A stretch of 11,477 bases of DNA from Tannerella sp. GTDB lineage: Bacteria > Bacteroidota > Bacteroidia > Bacteroidales > Tannerellaceae. Shown here piece by piece: positions 1 through 10,781 of this stretch. The stretch lies in contig JAITPL010000080.1 in NCBI GenBank assembly GCA_031289445.1, positions 1 to 11,477 on the forward strand. The letters run 5' to 3'. The stretch's first letter is position 1. Each line of letters opens with the position of its first letter. The notes beneath the pieces were generated by a model. That model saw only the letters and a list, made by a program, of their open reading frames with translations, searched no databases and was not told the DNA's origin. A program made the translations under genes and the position numbers.

Positions 1-633
1 ACGCCGGAAGAAGTTGCCGCCCTGTATCAGCAACATACCGATGAAAGCGGACAACTCTTCGAGCCGGATGCTGTTAGCCTTGTGTGGGAAAAGACGCAGG
101 GACAGCCCTGGCTCGTAAATGCCATAGCTTACGAGATTATTGACGGACAGTTAGATCGCGATTATTCGCAGACCGTAACTGCCGATATGGTTTTGAAAGC
201 CATTAATGCTATTCTTGTTCGTCGGGATACTCATGTTGACAGCCTCTTGTATCGACTGAAAGAGCCACGAGTTAAACGCATCGTTGAGCCTATGATTTTG
301 GGGGATGACGTTACTTTCGACTGGGCTTCGGACGATTTTCAGTACGTCTGCGATCTCGGCCTGATACACCCTGCCATACGCCCTGTGCAACCGGCTAATC
401 CTATTTACAACGAGATGATTTGCAGGGCGCTTTCGTACAGTTTTCAAGAAAATATGGCCAATAGCGAGACGCCTTACGTCATGCCGCGTTACCTTCGCGA
501 CGGAAAGATTGACATGGACTATTTAATGCGTGATTTTCAACAGTTCTGGCGCGAAAACAGTGCGATTTGGCAGGAGAAATGCGACACCCCAAACAAGTGT
601 CGCAATATTGCTTACAGTATAATAACCAAATAG
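1..633 (+). CDS. AAA-type ATP-binding protein, 3' part only, probably C-terminally truncated
   Basis: The frame is open from base 1, so the start and the nucleotide-binding (Walker) part lie before the window. What remains reads as the middle and lid region of a bacterial AAA-ATPase-like family that usually carries a PD-(D/E)XK nuclease-like C-terminal domain. I recognise characteristic stretches: TPEEVAALYQQHT near the start, TQGQPWLVNAIAYE (about 97-140), RRDTHVDSLLYRLKEPRVKR (about 223-280), an ANPIYNEM segment (about 394-417) and MDYLMRDFQQFWRENSAIW (about 514-570). In relatives, as I recall them, the last motif is followed by a domain of over 100 residues; here the match stops after WQEK and a stop comes 17 codons later. 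Neither other forward frame continues the family pattern, so deletion or recombination fits better than a frameshift. Family assignment is by pattern memory; function is unknown. Probably a decayed gene. Confidence 0.7.
   Translation, partial: TPEEVAALYQQHTDESGQLFEPDAVSLVWEKTQGQPWLVNAIAYEIIDGQLDRDYSQTVTADMVLKAINAILVRRDTHVDSLLYRLKEPRVKRIVEPMILGDDVTFDWASDDFQYVCDLGLIHPAIRPVQPANPIYNEMICRALSYSFQENMANSETPYVMPRYLRDGKIDMDYLMRDFQQFWRENSAIWQEKCDTPNKCRNIAYSIITK
580..604. repeat. 8-bp perfect inverted repeat at the truncation point of the ATPase gene
   Basis: TGCGACAC (580-587) and GTGTCGCA (597-604) are perfect inverted copies around a 9-base loop. They fall exactly where the upstream protein stops resembling its family, so they could mark an old recombination or insertion scar. 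There is no T-run directly after the stem, so a plain intrinsic terminator is less likely. Confidence 0.5.
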
Positions 634-701
634 TTATGTGATTGTCAATAAATATTATGGTGAAGTCAGAAGAAAAAAATTGCATATCGGAAATTTTTCG
701 T

Positions 702-730
702 ATCTTTCCTCTGTAAAAAACTTTTTTCAT
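702..730 (+). promoter_or_regulatory. 29-bp upstream element shared with the yciO promoter (copy 1)
   Basis: Read rightward, the block starts ATCTTTCCTC and ends with a near-palindromic A6-C-T6 core (715-727) followed by CAT. It ends 8 bp before the CTTG -33 box of the susC promoter. The reverse complement of 8302-8330 is identical at 28 of 29 positions (T712 is the difference) and lies at exactly the same distance from the yciO -33 box. The position suggests an upstream activating or bending element, or an operator. The role is inferred; the identity and spacing are read directly. Confidence 0.65.
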
Positions 731-738
731 TCCTCGTG

Positions 739-769
739 CTTGGATTCTTAAAAATTTTTTGTAATTTTG
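739..769 (+). promoter_or_regulatory. Bacteroidota-type promoter of the susC-susD-peptidase operon
   Basis: CTTG (739-742), 19 bases, then TAATTTTG (762-769) matches the Bacteroidota primary sigma factor consensus TTTG-N19-21-TAnnTTTG, with C for T at the first -33 position. Transcription should start near 775-777, giving a leader of roughly 25 nt before the susC start at 801. The three downstream genes have no comparable promoter between them, so this probably drives all of them. Confidence 0.75.
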
Positions 770-800
770 TTGCCGATATGTAACCAAAAACTTGATAATT

Positions 801-3800
801 ATGTGTAAAATTCTTATGATTCTTGCATTTATGATGCAATTTGTTGTTCTTAATGCGCAGACTACGGTAACCGGTACGGTTACTTCGTCCGAAGACGGCT
901 TACCGCTTGCAGGCGTGGCAGTCTTGGATAAGCAGACGCTCAATGGCGATGCTACCGATGCGGACGGACGTTTTGTCATCCCTTTGACCACTCGTAGCAA
1001 GGTACTGCAACTGTCTTATATCGGCTATAAGACAATCGAGATTGATATTACTTCGCAAAGCGGTGATATCAAAGTAGTTATGGACCCGGATGTAATTGCT
1101 ATGGACGAGGTAATGGTCATAGCTTACGGAACCGGTAAAAAGTCAACCTTCACCGGCTCGGCTACCGTTGTAAAGAGCGAATCACTGGAGAAAATCAAGA
1201 CCTCGAACATAACGCAGGCCTTGCAGGGACAGAGTAGCGGCGTGCAGGTCATCAATTCGAGCGGGCAGCCCGGAGATGACGCTACCGTACGTATCCGCGG
1301 CATAGGCTCTATCAATGCTTCGAGCGCCCCCTTGTATGTCGTTGACGGCATCGCTTACGACGGTTATATCAATGCCATCAGCCCTAATGACATAGAGAGT
1401 ATCACCGTCCTGAAAGACGCTTCGGCAACAGCTCTCTACGGCTCTCGTGCCGCCAACGGAGTAGTGTTGATTACTACTAAAGGAGGACTGTCGGAGAAGT
1501 CGCAGATAAACGTCCGTTCGACATGGAGCTATTCGGCTCTGGCAGTGGATTTGCCCCGTTCGCTGACGCCTCAGGAATTTACCGAGCTGACATGGCTGGC
1601 AATGAAAAACGGTCGGATGGATAATGCACAGGTCTCGGACGCCGAAGCCTCGCAGTTTGCAACCGATAACCTTATCAACGAACTGAAAATCAATCCTTTC
1701 AGCATTAACAAGCCGGTAGGTATAAACGGTCGAGTGGATCCTTCGACACAATTGATGTTTCAAGGCGATTGGCGGGGAGAGCTGCTGGTATCCAAACCCA
1801 GACAGGAATACTCGATTGACGTCAGCGGCAAAAGCGCTAAAAGCGATTACTTCGTGTCGGGCAGTTTCGTCAGCGACAAGGGAATATTTTCGATACAAAG
1901 TTTCAAGCGTTTCAGCACTCGTGTTAACCTTAACTATCAGGCCAATAACTGGTTGAAGGTAGGGTCGAACATAGCTCTCTCGGAGGGCAAACGCGAGTTG
2001 TGGGTAGATGGTTCTACGATATGGTTTCTGCGCACTATCTCACCCAACTATCCTGTATATGAATGGGATTACGACAAGGGTGAGTACAAACTCGACCCTA
2101 AAGGTAACCGTATCTATGACTATGGCGACGACCGTGCAGCTTGGGCCGGCTGGAGTCCACTTGCCGATGCCGCCTATAATCCTGCGCCCGAAACTACGGA
2201 TAATATCTCAAACCGCTCATATTTAGAGCTTACTATCCTTCCCGAACTGAAATTTCGTACTAATTTCAGTGTGGACTTTTATCTTTCCTCCTACGACGGA
2301 TATACTAACAGTCAATATGGATATGCGGCAGGTTACGGAGGCGAGGCCTACAAAACAAATTCACGCAATTTCTCTTATACGCTGAATAATCTTTTGACGT
2401 ATAACAAGAACTTCGGCGACCATACAGTCAGCGTTTTAGCAGGGCAGGAGGCATACGCTATGCAGTATAAGTATCTTGCAGCTTCAAAGCGGGGATTCCC
2501 TTTCGGCGGTCTGACCGAGATAGGCTCTGCTTCCGAAATGAACAGTATGAACTCGTATCAGGACAATTACCGGCTACTCAGCTGGTTGAGCCGCATAGAG
2601 TACGATTACAGCGACAAATATTATCTGTCGGGCAGTTTCCGTTCCGACGGTTCTTCACGCTTCCATCCTAATAGTCGCTGGGGACAGTTCTGGTCGATAG
2701 GCGCTTCGTGGCGTCTGTCCAATGAGGGATTTCTGGAACAGTACGACTGGATTGATAACCTGAAGGTGAGGGCAAGTTTGGGCGCTGTCGGAAACGACAA
2801 CCTGTCAACCTATTACGTATATCAGGGATTGTACGGCACAGGCCAAAACGACTATACCGATCCGGGAGTGATGATTAGTCGCCTGCCTAATGAGAACTTG
2901 AAGTGGGAAAGCAATGTACAGACAACGGTGGGCGTTGATTTTGTACTGTTTAACCGGCTAAGCGGCTCGGTTGAATGGTTTCTGCGCAAGTCCAAAGACC
3001 TGCTGTTCCCCATGCCGCTGGCGCCTTCGACAGGCTTTGGCAGTATCGACCGCAATATCGGCGACGTCAAGAACGAAGGCTTCGAGTTTGAGATCAACTA
3101 TGTGCCTGTCAGCAACCGCAACCTGCGCTGGTCAATCGACCTCAACGGAACATCCTACAAAAATACTATCACTCGATTGCCTCAGGAAGAGATGAATTCT
3201 GGTTATTTCAAGTGGCGAGAAGGCGAATCGCGTTTCAACTATTTCATGGTTGAATATGCCGGCGTCAATCCCGAAACCGGCAACGACCTGTATTGGCAGA
3301 ACATTTATGAAACCGTTGATGGGGAGAAAGTTATGACGGGTAGAGAGAAGACCGAAAATCTTAATGCTCTGACAAGCGACGACCAGAAACAATATGTCGG
3401 CGATGCGCTGCCTACTTTGTTTGGCGGATTGACTAACACGCTGTCGTACAGGGGAATAGACGTATCTTTCATGATTTATTACAGTGTAGGCGGCAAAATG
3501 TATGATACCGACTATTCGCAGATGATGACGTATCATACAGGCTACAGTATGCATTCCGACATGTTGAAAGGATGGGCGCCCGCGAATGCCGATGCTAAAT
3601 TTCCGCGCATATCAACTGCTTATGCTACGACTTTGAACGGCCATTCCACGAAATTTATATTTGATAATACTTTCGCCCGCCTGCGAAATATTACTCTTGG
3701 CTATACACTGCCTAAGGCGTTTACTCAGCAAGCTTTAATCAATTCGCTGCGGGTCTTCGTTCAGGCAGATAACGCACTTACTCTGGGAAGCGCTCAGAAA

Positions 3801-3896
3801 CGAGGCACCGACCCAGAACAGTCGATTGATGGGGGCACCAATAACCGCTTCCCAACGACTAAATCAATCTCTTTCGGTTTGCAATTGAATTTTTAA
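801..3896 (+). CDS. SusC/RagA-family TonB-dependent outer-membrane transporter
   Basis: 1031-residue outer-membrane protein that should form the barrel of a SusCD nutrient importer powered by TonB-ExbBD. Residues 1-19 are a signal peptide (cleavage at NA|Q). About 21-100 form a carboxypeptidase-D-regulatory-like beta-sandwich domain (VTGTVTSSEDGLPLAGV... to SYIGYKTIEI), which is typical of SusC proteins. A TonB-box-like stretch DEVMVIAYG is at 102-110. The plug follows, with the SusC signatures LYVVDG (178-183) and ITVLKDASATALYGSRAANG from 201. The rest is barrel, ending in the aromatic terminus FGLQLNF. Length is normal and the gene is intact. I chose ATG 801 because it directly begins the signal peptide; a TTG at 792 would only add three residues. 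susD follows after 21 bp. Substrate cannot be read from sequence; the peptidase neighbour suggests peptides, as for RagA. Confidence 0.95.
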   Translation: MCKILMILAFMMQFVVLNAQTTVTGTVTSSEDGLPLAGVAVLDKQTLNGDATDADGRFVIPLTTRSKVLQLSYIGYKTIEIDITSQSGDIKVVMDPDVIAMDEVMVIAYGTGKKSTFTGSATVVKSESLEKIKTSNITQALQGQSSGVQVINSSGQPGDDATVRIRGIGSINASSAPLYVVDGIAYDGYINAISPNDIESITVLKDASATALYGSRAANGVVLITTKGGLSEKSQINVRSTWSYSALAVDLPRSLTPQEFTELTWLAMKNGRMDNAQVSDAEASQFATDNLINELKINPFSINKPVGINGRVDPSTQLMFQGDWRGELLVSKPRQEYSIDVSGKSAKSDYFVSGSFVSDKGIFSIQSFKRFSTRVNLNYQANNWLKVGSNIALSEGKRELWVDGSTIWFLRTISPNYPVYEWDYDKGEYKLDPKGNRIYDYGDDRAAWAGWSPLADAAYNPAPETTDNISNRSYLELTILPELKFRTNFSVDFYLSSYDGYTNSQYGYAAGYGGEAYKTNSRNFSYTLNNLLTYNKNFGDHTVSVLAGQEAYAMQYKYLAASKRGFPFGGLTEIGSASEMNSMNSYQDNYRLLSWLSRIEYDYSDKYYLSGSFRSDGSSRFHPNSRWGQFWSIGASWRLSNEGFLEQYDWIDNLKVRASLGAVGNDNLSTYYVYQGLYGTGQNDYTDPGVMISRLPNENLKWESNVQTTVGVDFVLFNRLSGSVEWFLRKSKDLLFPMPLAPSTGFGSIDRNIGDVKNEGFEFEINYVPVSNRNLRWSIDLNGTSYKNTITRLPQEEMNSGYFKWREGESRFNYFMVEYAGVNPETGNDLYWQNIYETVDGEKVMTGREKTENLNALTSDDQKQYVGDALPTLFGGLTNTLSYRGIDVSFMIYYSVGGKMYDTDYSQMMTYHTGYSMHSDMLKGWAPANADAKFPRISTAYATTLNGHSTKFIFDNTFARLRNITLGYTLPKAFTQQALINSLRVFVQADNALTLGSAQKRGTDPEQSIDGGTNNRFPTTKSISFGLQLNF

Positions 3897-3917
3897 TAAC
3901 CTGATAACAAGAATTAT

Positions 3918-5375
3918 ATGAAAACTGTTAAATATTTATGTTTATATATAGCGCTGAGCTGCCTGGCGGCTTGCAGCGGCTTTTTGGAGACTAATCCTTC
4001 GACTTCCGTAGCCGATTCGGAAGTTTTTAAGACTATTTCGGGCGCTCAGGCAGCATTGAACGGATGCTACTATCAGATGCGCGCCTACAGCAGCGGAGGC
4101 GCTAATCGCGCGGACGATTACGGCTTGCCTTCCGTCCGTATTATTTCGGATGCTTGCGGCGAAGATATGATTTACTGGGGCGGATGGTATATCTATAACT
4201 ATAATTACTGGGGCGAAACGCGAGCCGACATCTATCGTTCGAGCCAGTTGTGGACTTTCCACTATCGTCTGATTAATAACCTCAATTCGGTTATAGCCTA
4301 TATCGACGAGTGTGAAGGCTCGGACGACGACAAGCGACATATCAAGGGACAAGCGCTTGCGATGCGGGGATGGGCTTATTTCGACCTGATACAGCTCTTT
4401 CAGCAGACCTATTCCATTGCTCAACAGATGCCCGGAGTGCCGATATATACCGAACCTACTACCGACGAGACTGTCGGCAAACCGCGAGGAACGGTTGAAG
4501 ATACTTATAAACAGGTACTTGCCGACCTTAATGCGGCTGAAGGGATGTTGAGCGATTTCGAGCGAGGCAATCATATCAACCGCTTCGACCTGTCAGTAGT
4601 GCAGGGAGTCCTGTCCGAAGTGTATCAGGTGATGAACAACTGGCCTAAATCCGAAGAATACTCGCATAAGGTGCTCGAAAAATATCCGCTGACAACTAAC
4701 GAACAGTATCTTGCAGGCTTCAATGACGAAACTACGCCTTCGTGGATTTGGGGCATGAGGCAGACAGAAGAACAGAGCATGGGCGACTATTCGATTTTTG
4801 CAATGTGGGGCAACGGTACGCGCAAATGCTGGACTTTTGCAGGATGGTTTCTTTCCGACCCTTTTGTCGCTCTCTATGATAAAGAAGATATACGAAGTCA
4901 GTTTGAATACTGGTGGGATCAGATATATGCCTCTTTCAAGTTTCGTGATAACGATGACTGTCGCGGCTCTATGGTTTTCATGCGTGCCGAAGAGATGCTG
5001 CTGAACGAAGCGGAAGCCTTGGCTCGACAGAACAAAGAAAGCGCCGCACAGGAACTGCTATGGAAACTGCAGGATATGCGTAAGGCAAAACGCTCTGTAT
5101 CAAGTGGCAACTATCTGATTGAAGATATTTTGCTGGAACGTCGCAAAGAGATGTATGGTGAAGGATATGCGCTGTTTGACATGCTGCGTAACCGTAAACC
5201 GCTGCTGCGCGAAGGTAATCACGCCAACTACGGCGGAGGAGTGAAATTCCCGGCTCAATCGTGGAGGTTTATCTTCCAGCTTCCTAACGCCGAAATGAAA
5301 AATAACAAGTCGTTGATTGACGGTATCTGGCCTAATGGCGACCAAAATCCTTACGACGGTGTTTATACCCCTTGA
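3918..5375 (+). CDS. SusD/RagB-family surface lipoprotein
   Basis: 485-residue nutrient-binding lipoprotein expected to cap the SusC barrel on the cell surface. The N-terminus is a lipoprotein signal peptide with lipobox LAAC; Cys19 is the predicted lipidated residue and is followed by SGFLETNPS, a usual SusD beginning. GAQAALNGCYYQMR (about 42-55) is the typical first helix. RGWAYFDLIQLF and the C-terminal ERRKEMYGEGYALFDMLR (starting near residue 407) are strong SusD-family signatures, and the C-terminus is complete. The gene lies 21 bp after susC and 19 bp before the peptidase gene, so the three are probably co-transcribed. The binding-face residues do not allow me to name the ligand. Peptide binding, as in RagB, is an inference from the operon; glycan binding remains possible. 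Confidence 0.94.
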   Translation: MKTVKYLCLYIALSCLAACSGFLETNPSTSVADSEVFKTISGAQAALNGCYYQMRAYSSGGANRADDYGLPSVRIISDACGEDMIYWGGWYIYNYNYWGETRADIYRSSQLWTFHYRLINNLNSVIAYIDECEGSDDDKRHIKGQALAMRGWAYFDLIQLFQQTYSIAQQMPGVPIYTEPTTDETVGKPRGTVEDTYKQVLADLNAAEGMLSDFERGNHINRFDLSVVQGVLSEVYQVMNNWPKSEEYSHKVLEKYPLTTNEQYLAGFNDETTPSWIWGMRQTEEQSMGDYSIFAMWGNGTRKCWTFAGWFLSDPFVALYDKEDIRSQFEYWWDQIYASFKFRDNDDCRGSMVFMRAEEMLLNEAEALARQNKESAAQELLWKLQDMRKAKRSVSSGNYLIEDILLERRKEMYGEGYALFDMLRNRKPLLREGNHANYGGGVKFPAQSWRFIFQLPNAEMKNNKSLIDGIWPNGDQNPYDGVYTP

Positions 5376-5394
5376 TTTAATTTCTATATTTATT

Positions 5395-7620
5395 ATGAGA
5401 CGTATTATTCTATTAATCGGTTTATTATCCTTGCCGTTCTTGATTACGGCTCAGGATTTGAAAGAGAAATATCGCCGTGCGGATGATTTCTCGAAGAAGT
5501 ATAACGACCTGTATTACAACAGTTTGTTGCAGGTCGAGAATATTCGCGAAACCAACTCGTTCTGGTATCTGACGAACACGACGGAAGGACGACGGTATTA
5601 TATTGTGGACGCCGAAAAGTCGGAGAAACGTGACGCTTTCGATAGCTCGCGCCTCGCCGATTCGCTTGGCGTTTTTCTGGGTGATACTGTTGTAGATGCG
5701 GCGAAGTTGAGCCTGCAAGCCTTGCGCTTCGACAAAGACCTCAAGAAAGTATCATTTATGGCCGGCGGCAAACGTGTTGACTGTGATCTCGACGATTACA
5801 GCATCCGTGAAGACCGTCGTGAAGGATTTCGCAGGGATGACGGTTACTGGCAGAAAGTATTTCAGGAAGACAGAAAAGAGCCGGTTAAGTCGCCCGACGG
5901 CAAGAAGGAGGCTTATATCTCGGAGGGCAACCTCTGGGTGCGCGACATTGCGACTAAGGCAACCAAGGTCTTGAGCAGCGACGGCTCGCCCTACGAGTAC
6001 TATGCGTCGAGCATTGTCTGGTCGCCCGATTCGCGCCGCCTCGTCTCGTGCAAGTATCGCCCTGTAGGGACGCGGCAACTGTATCGTATCGAATCATCGC
6101 CGACCGACCAGCTACAGCCGAAGTTGAGCAATATAGACTACGTCAAGCCCGGCGACGCGCTGCCGGTGCGCCATCCTGTAGTCTTTGACGTCGAGACAGG
6201 TCTAAGTTTCCGGTCGGATGCGCCCGGCATCGAAAATCAGTACGAGATATCGAATATTGAATGGTACGACAGCCTACAATTCACCTTCGCTTTCAATAAA
6301 CGCGGCCATCAGGAATATATCATCTATAAAACCGATGCTTTGAGCGGTGCAACTGCGCCGGTAGTGCACGAGAAAAGCCCTACTTTCATCTATTATAATG
6401 CCGTTTACAGTTATTTTTTGAAGGAGGCGGGCGAGATGTTGTGGATTTCGGAACGCGACGGCTGGAGACATATCTATCTCTACGACTTCGCGACAGGCGC
6501 AGTCAAACGTCAGCTTACAAAAGGCGAATGGGTGGTAAAGTCGGTCGTCAATGTGGATACGAAAAACCGCACGCTAATCTTCAAGGGATGCGGGCGGGAA
6601 AAGGGCGAAGACCCTTATTTGGAGAAGTATTATTCGCTGAATATCGACAATGGTAAAATCATCCTCCTGACGCCCGAAAACGCAACTCATCTGGCTACTT
6701 TCGACCAATCCTGCGCTTATATGATTGACAATTACTCGCGTGTAGATTTGCCGCCGGTAGCAGTTCTGCGCTCGGCAGCCGACGGAAAGGTGTTGATGAC
6801 GCTCGAAAAGGCCGATATAAGCAAGGCAGTCGAGGCCGGATGGCGGATGCCGGAGGTGTTCTCGGCTAAGGGACGCGACGGCAAGACGGATATTTGGGGA
6901 ATGATTATCCGTCCTACCGATTTCGACCCTGCGAAAAGCTATCCCATAGTCGAATATATCTACTCGGGGCCTCACGATTCGCATGTACCCAAGTCATTTT
7001 CAGCCGTTTATCGCTGTTCCGCACTCGCCGAGACAGGTTTTATAACGGTGCTTATCGACGGCATGGGAACGGCCAATCGCTCGAAGGCTTTCCATGATGT
7101 ATGCTGGCAAAACCTCAAGGATGCAGGCTTGCCCGACCATATAGCATGGCTCAAGGCCGCAGCCAAGAAATATCCTCACATGGATATTACGCGCGTCGGT
7201 ATCTATGGCGGCTCGGCGGGCGGGCAGAACTCGACAGGCGCCGTGCTCTTTCATCCCGACTTTTACAAGGTGGCCGTCTCGTCCTGCGGATGCCATGATA
7301 ACCGCATGGACAAGATATGGTGGAACGAGCAGTGGATGGGCTATCCTATAGGCAAACACTACGAAGAATCGTCAAATGTCTGCAACGCTCATCTTCTACA
7401 GGGCAAACTGATGCTTATACTCGGCGAGATGGACGATAACGTTGACCCGGCGAGTACTTTGCAGGTTGTTGACGAGCTGATAAAACATAACAAGGAATTT
7501 GAGTTTGTGATGCTGCCCGGCGTGAAGCACACTCTCGGCGAGACCTACGGCGAACGCAAACGGCGCGACTTTTTCGTCCGGCATCTGATAGGAATTGAGC
7601 CGCCGGAGTGGAACAGATAA
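5395..7620 (+). CDS. Secreted S9-family (DPP IV-type) prolyl oligopeptidase-like serine peptidase
   Basis: 741-residue exported peptidase. Residues 1-19 are a signal peptide (FLITA|Q). About 90-480 is a DPP IV-type beta-propeller, with blade motifs such as WSPDSRR and WISERDGWRHIYLYD; about 495-741 is the alpha/beta-hydrolase domain. The catalytic serine is Ser607 in YGGSAGG, the aspartate is Asp680 in GEMDDNVDP, and the histidine is His712 in PGVKHT; Tyr523 in YIYSGP fits the oxyanion tyrosine. All catalytic residues are present, so it is probably active. The acidic Glu-Glu motif that dipeptidyl peptidases IV use to hold the substrate amino terminus is not evident: the corresponding stretch reads SPYEYYASSIVWSPDS (198-213). 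Strict dipeptide release is therefore uncertain. ATG 5395 starts the signal peptide 19 bp after susD; an in-frame ATG at 5317 would put 26 unlikely residues before it and overlap susD. Confidence 0.9.
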   Translation: MRRIILLIGLLSLPFLITAQDLKEKYRRADDFSKKYNDLYYNSLLQVENIRETNSFWYLTNTTEGRRYYIVDAEKSEKRDAFDSSRLADSLGVFLGDTVVDAAKLSLQALRFDKDLKKVSFMAGGKRVDCDLDDYSIREDRREGFRRDDGYWQKVFQEDRKEPVKSPDGKKEAYISEGNLWVRDIATKATKVLSSDGSPYEYYASSIVWSPDSRRLVSCKYRPVGTRQLYRIESSPTDQLQPKLSNIDYVKPGDALPVRHPVVFDVETGLSFRSDAPGIENQYEISNIEWYDSLQFTFAFNKRGHQEYIIYKTDALSGATAPVVHEKSPTFIYYNAVYSYFLKEAGEMLWISERDGWRHIYLYDFATGAVKRQLTKGEWVVKSVVNVDTKNRTLIFKGCGREKGEDPYLEKYYSLNIDNGKIILLTPENATHLATFDQSCAYMIDNYSRVDLPPVAVLRSAADGKVLMTLEKADISKAVEAGWRMPEVFSAKGRDGKTDIWGMIIRPTDFDPAKSYPIVEYIYSGPHDSHVPKSFSAVYRCSALAETGFITVLIDGMGTANRSKAFHDVCWQNLKDAGLPDHIAWLKAAAKKYPHMDITRVGIYGGSAGGQNSTGAVLFHPDFYKVAVSSCGCHDNRMDKIWWNEQWMGYPIGKHYEESSNVCNAHLLQGKLMLILGEMDDNVDPASTLQVVDELIKHNKEFEFVMLPGVKHTLGETYGERKRRDFFVRHLIGIEPPEWNR

Positions 7621-7627
7621 GCGCGTA

Positions 7628-7644
7628 AAACTTAGGTTAAGTTT
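7628..7644. terminator. Possible bidirectional terminator between convergent genes
   Basis: AAACTTA (7628-7634), loop GGT, TAAGTTT (7638-7644): a perfect 7-bp inverted repeat with A's before and T's after it. It sits between the peptidase stop and the end of the leftward gene and contains the latter's stop codon. The stem is AT-rich and the loop small, so it is a weak candidate. Confidence 0.35.
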
Positions 7645-8243
7645 ATTTCGCCTTTGCCTTGGCGAAGTATGGTAAACGGCTCGGAGGTGCAATTGATTAC
7701 GGTTGAGCCTTCGACGTCGCCATATCCGCCGTCGATGACCAGATCAACATCCTCGGCATAGCGCTCGAAAATCAGTTCGGGGTCGGTAGAGTACTCCGGC
7801 TCGTCTTCGTCGTACTGCACCGACATTGTCAGCACCGGATGTCCCAGCTCCCGGCAGATGACTTGGATAATTGGGCTGTCGGGCATACGGATACCTACCT
7901 CCCTGCGGTTCTTGTAAATCTTCGGCAGGCCGCTGCTGGTGGGCAGAATAAAGGTATAGGGGCCGGGCAGGTAGTCGCGAATAAGTTTGAAAACCTGATT
8001 GCTGACCTTGGCATACTCGCTGATATTCGACAGGTCGTAGCATATAATCGAGAGGTTGCTTTTTTCGGGATTCACATTCTTTATCTTGCAGATACGCTCT
8101 ACAGCGCGAACATTCAGCGCATCGCAACCGATAGCATACATGGTATCCGTCGGGTAGATAGCCAACCCGCCGTCTTGTAGCGTCCGCACTACTCGATCAA
8201 TCTCCTTAGTATTAGGACTGTCAGGATAAATCTTTATCAGCAT
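7632..8243 (-). CDS. yciO: YciO-type member of the Sua5/YciO/YrdC family
   Basis: 203-residue single-domain cytosolic protein. The YrdC fold is recognisable from GGLAIYPTDTMYAIGCDA (about 25-42), RAVERICKIK (46-55), LPGPYTFIL (92-100) and VGIRMP (116-121). The family includes the enzymes that make threonylcarbamoyl-adenylate for tRNA t6A (TsaC/YrdC, Sua5). Details here fit the YciO branch instead: the K-x-R of TsaC becomes K55-N-V57, and the S-A-N motif becomes S141-V-Q143, similar to the R-Q-L and S-L-M that I recall in E. coli YciO. E. coli YciO is reported not to replace YrdC, so this gene should not be taken as the cell's t6A synthase. It is transcribed alone from its own promoter and converges on the peptidase gene. 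Sequence looks intact with normal length. Confidence 0.85.
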   Translation of the reverse strand: MLIKIYPDSPNTKEIDRVVRTLQDGGLAIYPTDTMYAIGCDALNVRAVERICKIKNVNPEKSNLSIICYDLSNISEYAKVSNQVFKLIRDYLPGPYTFILPTSSGLPKIYKNRREVGIRMPDSPIIQVICRELGHPVLTMSVQYDEDEPEYSTDPELIFERYAEDVDLVIDGGYGDVEGSTVINCTSEPFTILRQGKGEINLT

Positions 8244-8262
8244 ACTGTTTTAATTAAGGCTG

Positions 8263-8293
8263 CAAAAGTACATAAAATCTTTTGATTTACAAG
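8263..8293 (-). promoter_or_regulatory. Leftward promoter of the yciO-type gene
   Basis: On the minus strand, CTTG (plus CAAG 8290-8293), 19 bases, then TACTTTTG (plus 8263-8270) matches the Bacteroidota consensus with the same CTTG variant and the same 19-nt spacer as the susC promoter. The start site would be near 8256, about 12 nt before the ATG at 8243, so the leader is very short. Confidence 0.72.
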
Positions 8294-8301
8294 CGCGTGA
8301 G

Positions 8302-8330
8302 ATGAAAAAAGTTTTTTACGGAGGAAAGAT
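8302..8330 (-). promoter_or_regulatory. 29-bp upstream element shared with the susC promoter (copy 2)
   Basis: Read leftward, this is the same block as 702-730 with one change (C instead of T at the eleventh position). It ends 8 bp before the CTTG box at 8290-8293. It also lies 53 bp upstream of the rightward copper ATPase -33 box, so it could touch both promoters, but the fixed 8-bp spacing links it to yciO. On the plus strand it begins with ATG and could be read as a short ORF (MKKVFYGGK...); I consider that incidental. Confidence 0.62.
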
Positions 8331-8383
8331 CATGCTTATTTTTCAGAAAAAAACGCATGAAATTGGGCGTTCGCGAAAAAATA

Positions 8384-8415
8384 TTTGGATTTATCCGAAA
8401 TTTGTTGTACCTTTG
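8384..8415 (+). promoter_or_regulatory. Promoter of the copper ATPase gene
   Basis: TTTG (8384-8387), 20 bases, then TACCTTTG (8408-8415) is a full match to the Bacteroidota promoter consensus. The start site should be near 8421-8423, giving a leader of about 80 nt, much longer than those of the two other gene promoters here. No 29-bp upstream block is present at the equivalent position. Confidence 0.75.
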
Positions 8416-10710: not shown

Positions 10711-10781
10711 ATAAGAAACAGATTGAAGCATTAAAAAAATTAACTGCTTATGCTTTTCGGTCAAGTAAACAAGTGTTTTTT

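Follow-up and report, generated by a model that had tools for sequence, protein, structure and literature searches.

A dispersed ~70-bp promoter unit upstream of functionally unrelated genes in Tannerella: a putative mobile promoter

The window analyzed here is the stretch of 11,477 nucleotides at positions 1 to 11,477 of contig JAITPL010000080.1 of a Tannerella sp. assembly (GCA_031289445.1). Its subject is a 29-bp block that lies upstream of two genes, a susC-like gene and, on the opposite strand, a yciO/Sua5-family gene (Table 1). The susC copy reads ATCTTTCCTCTGTAAAAAACTTTTTTCAT (positions 702 to 730), and the reverse complement of positions 8302 to 8330, upstream of yciO, agrees with it at 28 of 29 bases, the sole difference being T/C at base 11. 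Both copies end 8 nt before a CTTG box (gaps at 731 to 738 and 8301 to 8294), which is followed by a 19-nt spacer and a box of the form TAnnTTTG; this arrangement, described in an initial annotation of the DNA, is read directly in the window. Searched with up to three mismatches, the block pattern gave two matches in the window and none in any of 200 dinucleotide shuffles.

The block makes up the upstream 40% of a larger promoter unit, about 70 bp long, which can be written TAYCTTT-CCTCTGTA6-7CT6CAT-N8-CTTG-N19/20-TA[AC]TTTTG. The consensus of 38 aligned units is TAnCTTTCCTCTGTAAAAAACTTTTTTCATTnGCACGCGCTTGGAAATCnCAAnATTTTCATGTAATTTTGC; these were picked by their block, so the constancy of the block and of its A6-C-T6 stretch among them is no test. 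From this alignment a sequence-only model of the full unit, R1, was built; it was trained in part on copies from the genome of the window, and both window units were among the 38. That assembly (G000, hereafter the home genome; 1.68 Mb in 234 contigs, 61% complete) holds four block copies at up to three mismatches and a fifth found with a shorter 27-base pattern, so the window copies are not the only two, a case the initial annotation had allowed for. All five run in one order: block, 8-nt gap, CTTG, 19 to 20 nt, TAnnTTTG. Across 39 distinct units from many genomes, a tally that dropped block copies lacking a promoter core, the gap between block and CTTG was 8 nt in 14 units, 9 in 14, 10 in 7, 7 in 3, and 4 in 1. 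The fixed spacing first proposed therefore holds for both window copies but widens to 4 to 10 nt over the larger set. The gap in these 39 units is often an alternating pyrimidine-purine run (e.g., TTCGTGCGCG or TGCACGCG), and its consensus is species dependent (CCCTCGCG in the home genome, TTCGTGCGCG in a second genome, G002). Gap and spacer are parts of the repeated unit, more diverged than the block; their differences between the two window copies, once taken to mean that this was not simply a recently copied promoter, thus do not carry that argument.

Table 1. Features of the two promoter units in the window and the genes next to them
Feature	Position	Strand	Basis
Promoter unit 1, 5' of susC	701..769	+	Full-unit model R1, place C79:702-770, E 2.2e-14
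Left end of unit 1, TATCTTT, read as putative older -7 box remnant	701..707	+	Suggested by the empty sites of the fabD and L004 orthologs
29-bp block, copy 1	702..730	+	Sequence; shuffles
A6-C-T6 UP-like element, unit 1	715..727	+	Sequence; inverted repeat I2
-33 box CTTG, unit 1	739..742	+	Sequence; TTG in at least 90% of 38 units
-7 box TAATTTTG, unit 1	762..769	+	Sequence; TA and TTT (nearly) invariant in 38 units
susC-like TonB-dependent receptor gene, served by unit 1	801..3896	+	Pfam Plug, CarbopepD_reg_2
Promoter unit 2, 5' of yciO	8263..8331	-	Model R1, place C79:8262-8330, E 1.4e-17
Left end of unit 2, GATCTTT, read as putative decayed older -7 box	8325..8331	-	Suggested, as for unit 1
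29-bp block, copy 2	8302..8330	-	Sequence; shuffles
A6-C-T6 UP-like element, unit 2	8305..8317	-	Sequence
-33 box CTTG, unit 2	8290..8293	-	Sequence
-7 box TACTTTTG, unit 2	8263..8270	-	Sequence
yciO/Sua5-family gene, served by unit 2	7632..8243	-	Pfam PF01300
Plain promoter TTTG...TACCTTTG without the unit, divergent copper-ATPase-type gene; contrast within the window	8384..8415	+	Sequence; pattern search

Conservation stops at the edges of the unit. In the home genome, information is mostly 1 to 2 bits per base inside the unit and falls in the flanks to 0.17 bits per base on the left and 0.27 on the right; the flanks of the G002 units carry 0.15 and 0.16 bits per base. Likewise, mean pairwise identity among 26 home-genome units is 82% over the bodies and 29% and 34% over the 40-nt flanks, with corresponding values of 79%, 28%, and 30% for 44 units in G002. 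Two home-genome units (L086 and L087) have identical bodies, different genes downstream, and unrelated flanks. The units contain about 85 bits in the home genome (36 sites) and about 70 bits in G002 (47 sites), whereas 16.5 and 17.4 bits are needed to find that many sites; this excess, biased upward since the site sets were chosen by similarity, points to copying. Taken together, these comparisons suggest that the unit is a real, sharply bounded promoter cassette that was recently multiplied.

Presence and absence at orthologous loci also points to copying. Within the genus, yciO was found in 36 of 41 genomes and fabD in 37 of 41; among the 30 loci read for each gene, the full unit stood only in the home genome (120 nt upstream were read for yciO and 140 nt for fabD, with 46 nt at L239 and 106 nt at L232). 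The nearest genome by FabD is the sister genome G019 (95% identity), in which 30 home-genome coding starts were searched; 15 rows were returned, and 14 loci were compared. At eight of these (fabD, the L113 GT2 gene, the L097 DUF362 gene, L003, dnaN, the L101 GH2 gene, L004, and L104), the position in G019 that aligns with the home-genome unit is occupied by a plain TAYCTTTG box, and the leader after the box is similar or partly similar in the two genomes. Of the other six, L135 shares the unit, L107 is ambiguous, and L111, L122, L116, and L114 are uninformative. The right edge of the unit falls at the -7 box at all eight informative loci. The cleanest empty site, with edges marked by slashes, reads AAAAATAATCGCTATCTTT/GCATC in G019 and AAAAATAATCACTGTCTTT/CCTCCGTAATAAAC...CATGTAATTTT/GCAGA in the home genome, and fabD is alike. 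Comparison shows the unit, its copy number, its sharp edges, its orientation in the home genome, its presence or absence, and its 3' edge at the -7 box, and the proposal that this is a promoter-bearing repeat, one of several candidates in the initial annotation, gains support from the copied whole and from the occupied and empty loci. We consider it likely that the block forms the 5' portion of a ~70-bp promoter cassette (a putative mobile promoter) that was dispersed by copying onto existing promoters.

Close pairs of orthologs do share units (home L135 and G019 L070, at 80% identity; G002 L024 and G011 L013, at 92.5%), which indicates that units are inherited over short times. Such sharing would also follow if this were a long but ordinary promoter type of the lineage, kept vertically and without mobility. 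That explanation is very improbable: it sits poorly with the eight sister loci without the unit, with its restriction to the home genome among the yciO and fabD loci, and with identical bodies between unrelated flanks. The home genome and G002 have hardly any served genes in common: 2 of 39 home-genome open reading frames (ORFs) behind units match any of 49 such ORFs in G002, both from multicopy families; some of the 49 are one gene counted behind tandem units.

The left flanks of fabD and of the L004 gene can be aligned as far as TAYCTTT, and then the unit follows. Because the unit sits inside the old box at these two loci, the first letters of the block (ATCTTT) may be the remains of an older promoter; this origin of the left end is direct at the two loci and presumed elsewhere, the window included. 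Boxes appear to flank the unit, and in the home genome they differ: positions 3 and 4 are YC in 22 of 24 left boxes and AT or CT in 29 of 34 right (new) -7 boxes. These edges are compatible with a more specific proposal, in which a promoter-hunting, coding-free cassette of ~63 bp, bounded by -7 boxes, inserts specifically into -7 boxes (TAYCTTT^G), perhaps using DNA that RNA polymerase has opened there. Each insertion would retire the old box and supply a new UP element, -33 box, and -7 box, the last being the target for the next insertion, and core-gene promoters (dnaN, fabD) would be rewired wholesale between sister species. Tandem units occur in G002 (L174, L166, and L180; the L174 junction reads TAGTTTT/CCTTTGTG) and are what successive insertions, each into the newest box, would produce. 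We regard box-targeted insertion as possible but doubtful, and the frequency of YC in plain promoters, given below, lowered our confidence in it slightly.

A number of observations count against these readings. With regard to the edges, clean insertion into the box is seen at only two of the five loci with an alignable left flank (fabD and L004), the left flank being unalignable at the remaining three of the eight; the left edge lies in an A-run at dnaN (TTTCAAAAA/...) and ~10 to 20 bp 5' of the old box at L101, and it is ambiguous at L104. Since the left edges are not all in the box, "insertion" is partly "replacement." Outgroups support gain in the home genome, rather than loss in G019, only at fabD, and both genomes are incomplete bins (61% and 59%). 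Promoter cores without the block precede yciO in G028 (L203) and, in the core-like form CTTGGAAAAACGAGTTTTTTCCTGTAATTTTG, fabD in G022 (L237). With regard to composition, only 17 of 35 left boxes in G002 have YC, and plain promoters, picked by a simple rule, have it in 2 of 9 cases in the home genome and 4 of 8 in G002, so the composition case for an old left box outside G019 is weak. At the left end, TTT is kept in 21 of 24 units and TA in 13 of 24; the better preservation of CTTT than of the preceding TA means that CTTT may belong to the cassette. Terminal inverted repeats were absent from the three units searched, and no target duplication was seen. Finally, the G002 units are less tidily placed: 26 of 48 lie within 60 nt of an ATG and 35 of 48 within 120 nt (reverse direction, 10 of 46 within 60 nt; 3 units skipped).

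Placement in the home genome is more regular. Among units scoring at least 30, 29 of 32 lie within 60 nt of the ATG of an ORF of at least 60 amino acids (6 more, with short sequence, were skipped), compared with 4 of 25 in the reverse direction and 177 of 640 random positions. The outcome that the initial annotation had named as refuting, copies elsewhere at no fixed distance or orientation to promoters, was thus not observed in this genome. An alternative sigma factor was set aside, the -33 and -7 boxes being of the primary type; a small ORF on the opposite strand (MKKVFYGGK...) was also rejected, because the promoter is on the block strand and the frame, by eye, is not continued alike elsewhere.

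The block does not travel alone. With up to three mismatches, the 27-mer was found at 19 places in 8 of 100 relatives (home genome included), all of the same genus, and the reversed 27-mer at none; all 19 places have -33 and -7 boxes downstream if a single odd letter is tolerated. Scanning named genomes for the exact 21-mer returned 31 copies in 30 stretches, of which 28 copies in 27 stretches are labeled Bacteroidales (Tannerella, Symbiothrix, Prevotellaceae, Proteiniphilum, Paludibacter, or Bacteroidales bacterium); we take most isolate codes of these stretches to denote termite or cockroach gut samples. Twenty-two of the 28 are followed by a strict [CT]TTG-N-TAnnTTT[GA] promoter and three more by one with a single odd letter (L028, L038, and L042), while the -7 box is missing at L050 and both boxes are missing at L049 and L053. 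The three exact copies in other taxa (Defluviitaleaceae, Archaeoglobaceae, and Bacillus) have neither box, and the five copies without any promoter look like chance. The block as an independent element was therefore rejected, since its copies have -33 and -7 boxes downstream almost throughout.

The full unit is more numerous. Model R1 finds 51 places in the home genome at E ≤ 0.01, at least one match in 39 of the 41 genomes of the genus, and a best E below 1e-10 in 18 of 41; G002 has at least 121 matches, G009 47, and G019 7, and the searches of G031 and G038 gave none. Among 295 genomes of the order (home genome included; up to 16 scored candidates per genome), seven had matches at E ≤ 1e-4, and the only strong ones apart from the home genome were G327 and G296, from other families. 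A second model, R2, which covers the -33/-7 part alone and is blind to the block, found 65 home-genome places at E ≤ 1. Sixty-one of these had enough upstream sequence to be used, and A6CT6CAT, with up to three mismatches, preceded 25 of 30 scoring at least 23.5 bits, 7 of 16 between 15 and 23.5 bits, and 4 of 15 below. Places chosen by their core carry A6CT6CAT upstream, and so block and core go together, yet core-only promoters exist. The exact pattern CTTG-N14-18-TTCATGTANTTTTG occurs 17 times in the home genome and 34 times in G002, and its reversed form not at all. At L103 (C146:452-483 and 779-812), tandem paralogs of 90% identity with alike leaders carry different unit subtypes, the block being present in one and absent from the other.

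Short length, dispersal, high copy number, and sharp edges are also what a nonautonomous transposon would have, like a miniature inverted-repeat transposable element (MITE) or a REPIN, moved by a transposase encoded elsewhere in the genome, and the tandem and divergent copies in G002 fit such an element. We nevertheless think it improbable. Y1 transposases (PF01797), the one transposase family searched for, gave no hit in G000, G002, G009, or G327 (completeness 61, 86, 94, and 93%), with 5 of 14 control genomes positive; in place of terminal inverted repeats, the three units searched hold central A/T dyads and short internal pairs; the left and right boxes differ, which speaks against a simple target duplication; and the home-genome copies are nearly all in promoter position. 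A mariner-like TA target duplication was disfavored, the new home-genome boxes having AT/CT and the G019 boxes at the eight loci YC. A phage or plasmid origin was rejected: the unit had no plasmid or phage match at E ≤ 0.01, the exact 21-base block core occurs in no viral contig, and A6CT6CAT-N7-11-CTTG occurs in seven, by eye without the rest of the unit. In place of a dedicated enzyme, we infer recombination at short homologies, such as the -7 box and the A-tract, as the route of spread. As for the arrangement of units in G002, tandem and divergent copies are seen at L166, L174, L179, L180, and L184, the L179 cluster is scrambled, and some precede MARYLDPKND-type genes.

The copies precede functionally unrelated genes. 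A Pfam scan of 26 home-genome proteins (6 from the window and 20 unit-served elsewhere) placed members of the unit-served set in the DnaN, acyl transferase (presumably FabD), RbfA, class-V aminotransferase, GT2, GH2, GH20, carbon-nitrogen hydrolase, aldo/keto reductase, AcrB-type efflux, AAA-ATPase_like, and PDDEXK_2 families; 3 of the 20 (L003, L004, and L096) had no match at 1e-8, and we take the L003 protein to be V-ATPase subunit E. Among the 39 home-genome ORFs downstream of units, 35 have no match among the others and 4 do. In a Symbiothrix metagenome-assembled genome (L035 1708-1831, minus strand), a block-bearing unit precedes a flavin mononucleotide riboswitch. Two further observations concern the window itself. 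A 210-residue open frame (1-633, plus strand) enters from the contig edge and has no Pfam match at 1e-3, and CTGCTTATGCNTTTCGGTCAAGT, at 10744-10766, recurs just 5' of a unit on contig C210 (L003 1573-1595) and is possibly a second dispersed intergenic repeat.

Between the -33 and -7 boxes lies a spacer dyad, TGGAAAWC-N4-GWTTTTCA. Across 104 distinct spacers, 570 of 832 cells are paired by Watson-Crick rules alone; 2,000 shuffles averaged 529 and never exceeded 548, and sliding the dyad leaves at most 391 paired. Pair 5:12 exceeds shuffles in G002 (22 versus 12.6) and in other genomes (32 versus 20.3), as does pair 4:13 in the home genome (28 versus 18.2); pair 1:16 is paired in 1 of 104 spacers (mismatched in 103), and pair 6:11 shows no excess (33 versus 32.3). 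When G-T counts as a pair, no shuffle of 500 reaches the covariation score or the percentage paired of the 38 units, and two of five measures do not stand out, having been equaled in 119 and 90 of the 500 shuffles. The shuffles leave kinship in, and copied subfamilies inflate covariation.

The dyad could accommodate a dimeric protein bound to the spacer and may be read as part of an operator. In this explanation, a lineage-specific activator or repressor binds the block (about -71 to -43) and the dyad, and selection keeps independently evolved promoters alike; the covarying dyad fits it, and the species-specific consensus of the unit is what coevolution with a protein would give. We judge it rather unlikely. 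Genes as unlike as dnaN, rbfA, and those for an acyl transferase, a class-V aminotransferase, glycosidases, efflux, and SusC make no simple regulon, and units are not kept at the yciO and fabD orthologs; related functions and retention at orthologs, as a regulon operator would have, were thus both lacking. The similarity among units is far above what site recognition needs, G019 shows presence and absence, and pairs 1:16 and 6:11, the two measures at shuffle level, and the inflation by kinship all detract from the covariation. The shared operator suggested in the initial annotation therefore keeps the dyad in its favor and has the diversity of the genes against it.

With the -7 box taken as -11 to -4, the A6-C-T6 stretch, which in the window ends 11 nt 5' of the -33 box, would lie at about -58 to -46. 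The Escherichia coli UP element has the consensus AAAWWTWTTTT at about -57 to -47, and AAAAACTTTTT, by our reading, fits it at 10 of 11 positions. The likeness is one of A/T-rich position; unlike the E. coli element, the stretch belongs to a repeated unit whose conservation extends further upstream. The home-genome RpoA has an alpha-subunit C-terminal domain (PF03118, 82.9 bits) and can be aligned from end to end with two solved alpha chains (8dkc and 9n9p), and its DNA-contact residues are presumably intact, by E. coli positions; no such domain was found in the incomplete genome G002. A6-C-T6 is thus likely to be a UP-like element, a candidate of the initial annotation, fitting by position and with the domain present. 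At L117 (C141:10850-10876), a home-genome unit lacks A6-C-T6 between CCTCTG and CCTCGCG, as if the UP-like element had been lost there by a natural deletion.

Under the favored reading, in which the block belongs to a dispersed, copied promoter cassette, the cassette would consist, from 5' to 3', of a remnant of an old -7 box (TAYCTTT), the UP-like A6-7-C-T6 stretch, CTTG, the dyad spacer, and a new -7 box (TA[AC]TTTTG). The A6-7-C-T6 stretch would bind the C-terminal domain of the RNA polymerase alpha subunit. The unit would act as a general promoter of the Bacteroidota primary-sigma type, active and probably strong. Within each lineage it would have multiplied by copying onto existing promoters; with its 3' edge set at the -7 box of the target, the spacing to the start codon would stay unchanged. 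The common view is that promoters change mainly where they stand, through point mutations. In this case an entire promoter was apparently copied before dozens of genes, and core-gene promoters (dnaN and fabD) were apparently replaced in the time that separates two sister species, with the old -7 box at the edge wherever this could be checked. Should this hold, part of the regulatory change in these gut symbionts comes from the spread of a repeat with the -7 box as its landing site. As a practical caution, a "conserved motif" of great length in a Bacteroidota promoter may represent a copied cassette rather than a binding site.

A search of the literature by titles and abstract openings, subscription papers and preprints aside, found no description of the unit. 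In Bacteroides thetaiotaomicron, promoter mapping identified -33 TTTG and -7 TAnnTTTG as the primary-sigma promoter (PMC7366714). The unit has like boxes and spacing; the 29-bp block and the 70-bp unit do not appear in the available part of that report, where the motif search covered -50 to +1 and two short motifs were reported (PMC7366714). REPINs and their RAYT partners are likewise small dispersed repeats with hairpin potential, as far as the accessible text describes them (PMC8049555); the present unit differs from that description in that no Y1 transposase was found in the four genomes and in its promoter position and orientation.

The nearest known kind is the putative mobile promoter, which the unit resembles in copy number, unrelated genes, and turnover. 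Putative mobile promoters, reportedly introduced by Matus-Garcia, Nijveen, and van Passel in 2012 ("Promoter propagation in prokaryotes," Nucleic Acids Research [NAR]), are said to be short promoter-bearing sequences with many copies before unrelated genes that differ between relatives. Several copies in one genome, with promoter nature judged from sequence, nonhomologous genes, and presence or absence at orthologs were all found here. By comparison with that description, the present unit has its 3' edge at the target's -7 box (eight loci), apparent -7 boxes on both sides, a UP-like element, and tens to more than 100 model matches per genome. Another relative, the BrickBuilt repeat of Porphyromonas gingivalis, is said to be longer than ~70 bp. 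Mobile promoters are cited in the available parts of PMC4596501 and PMC5906472, and the comparison is raised by the BrickBuilt authors themselves (PMC4596501). The accessible text describes BrickBuilt as a MITE-like dispersed intergenic repeat whose promoter activity was measured in E. coli; it contains a 23-nt tandem repeat and promoters that point both ways (PMC4596501), whereas the present unit is ~70 bp and one-directional. As far as that account goes, the two are alike in being dispersed, intergenic, promoter-bearing repeats in a member of the Bacteroidales, the unit described here being known from sequence.

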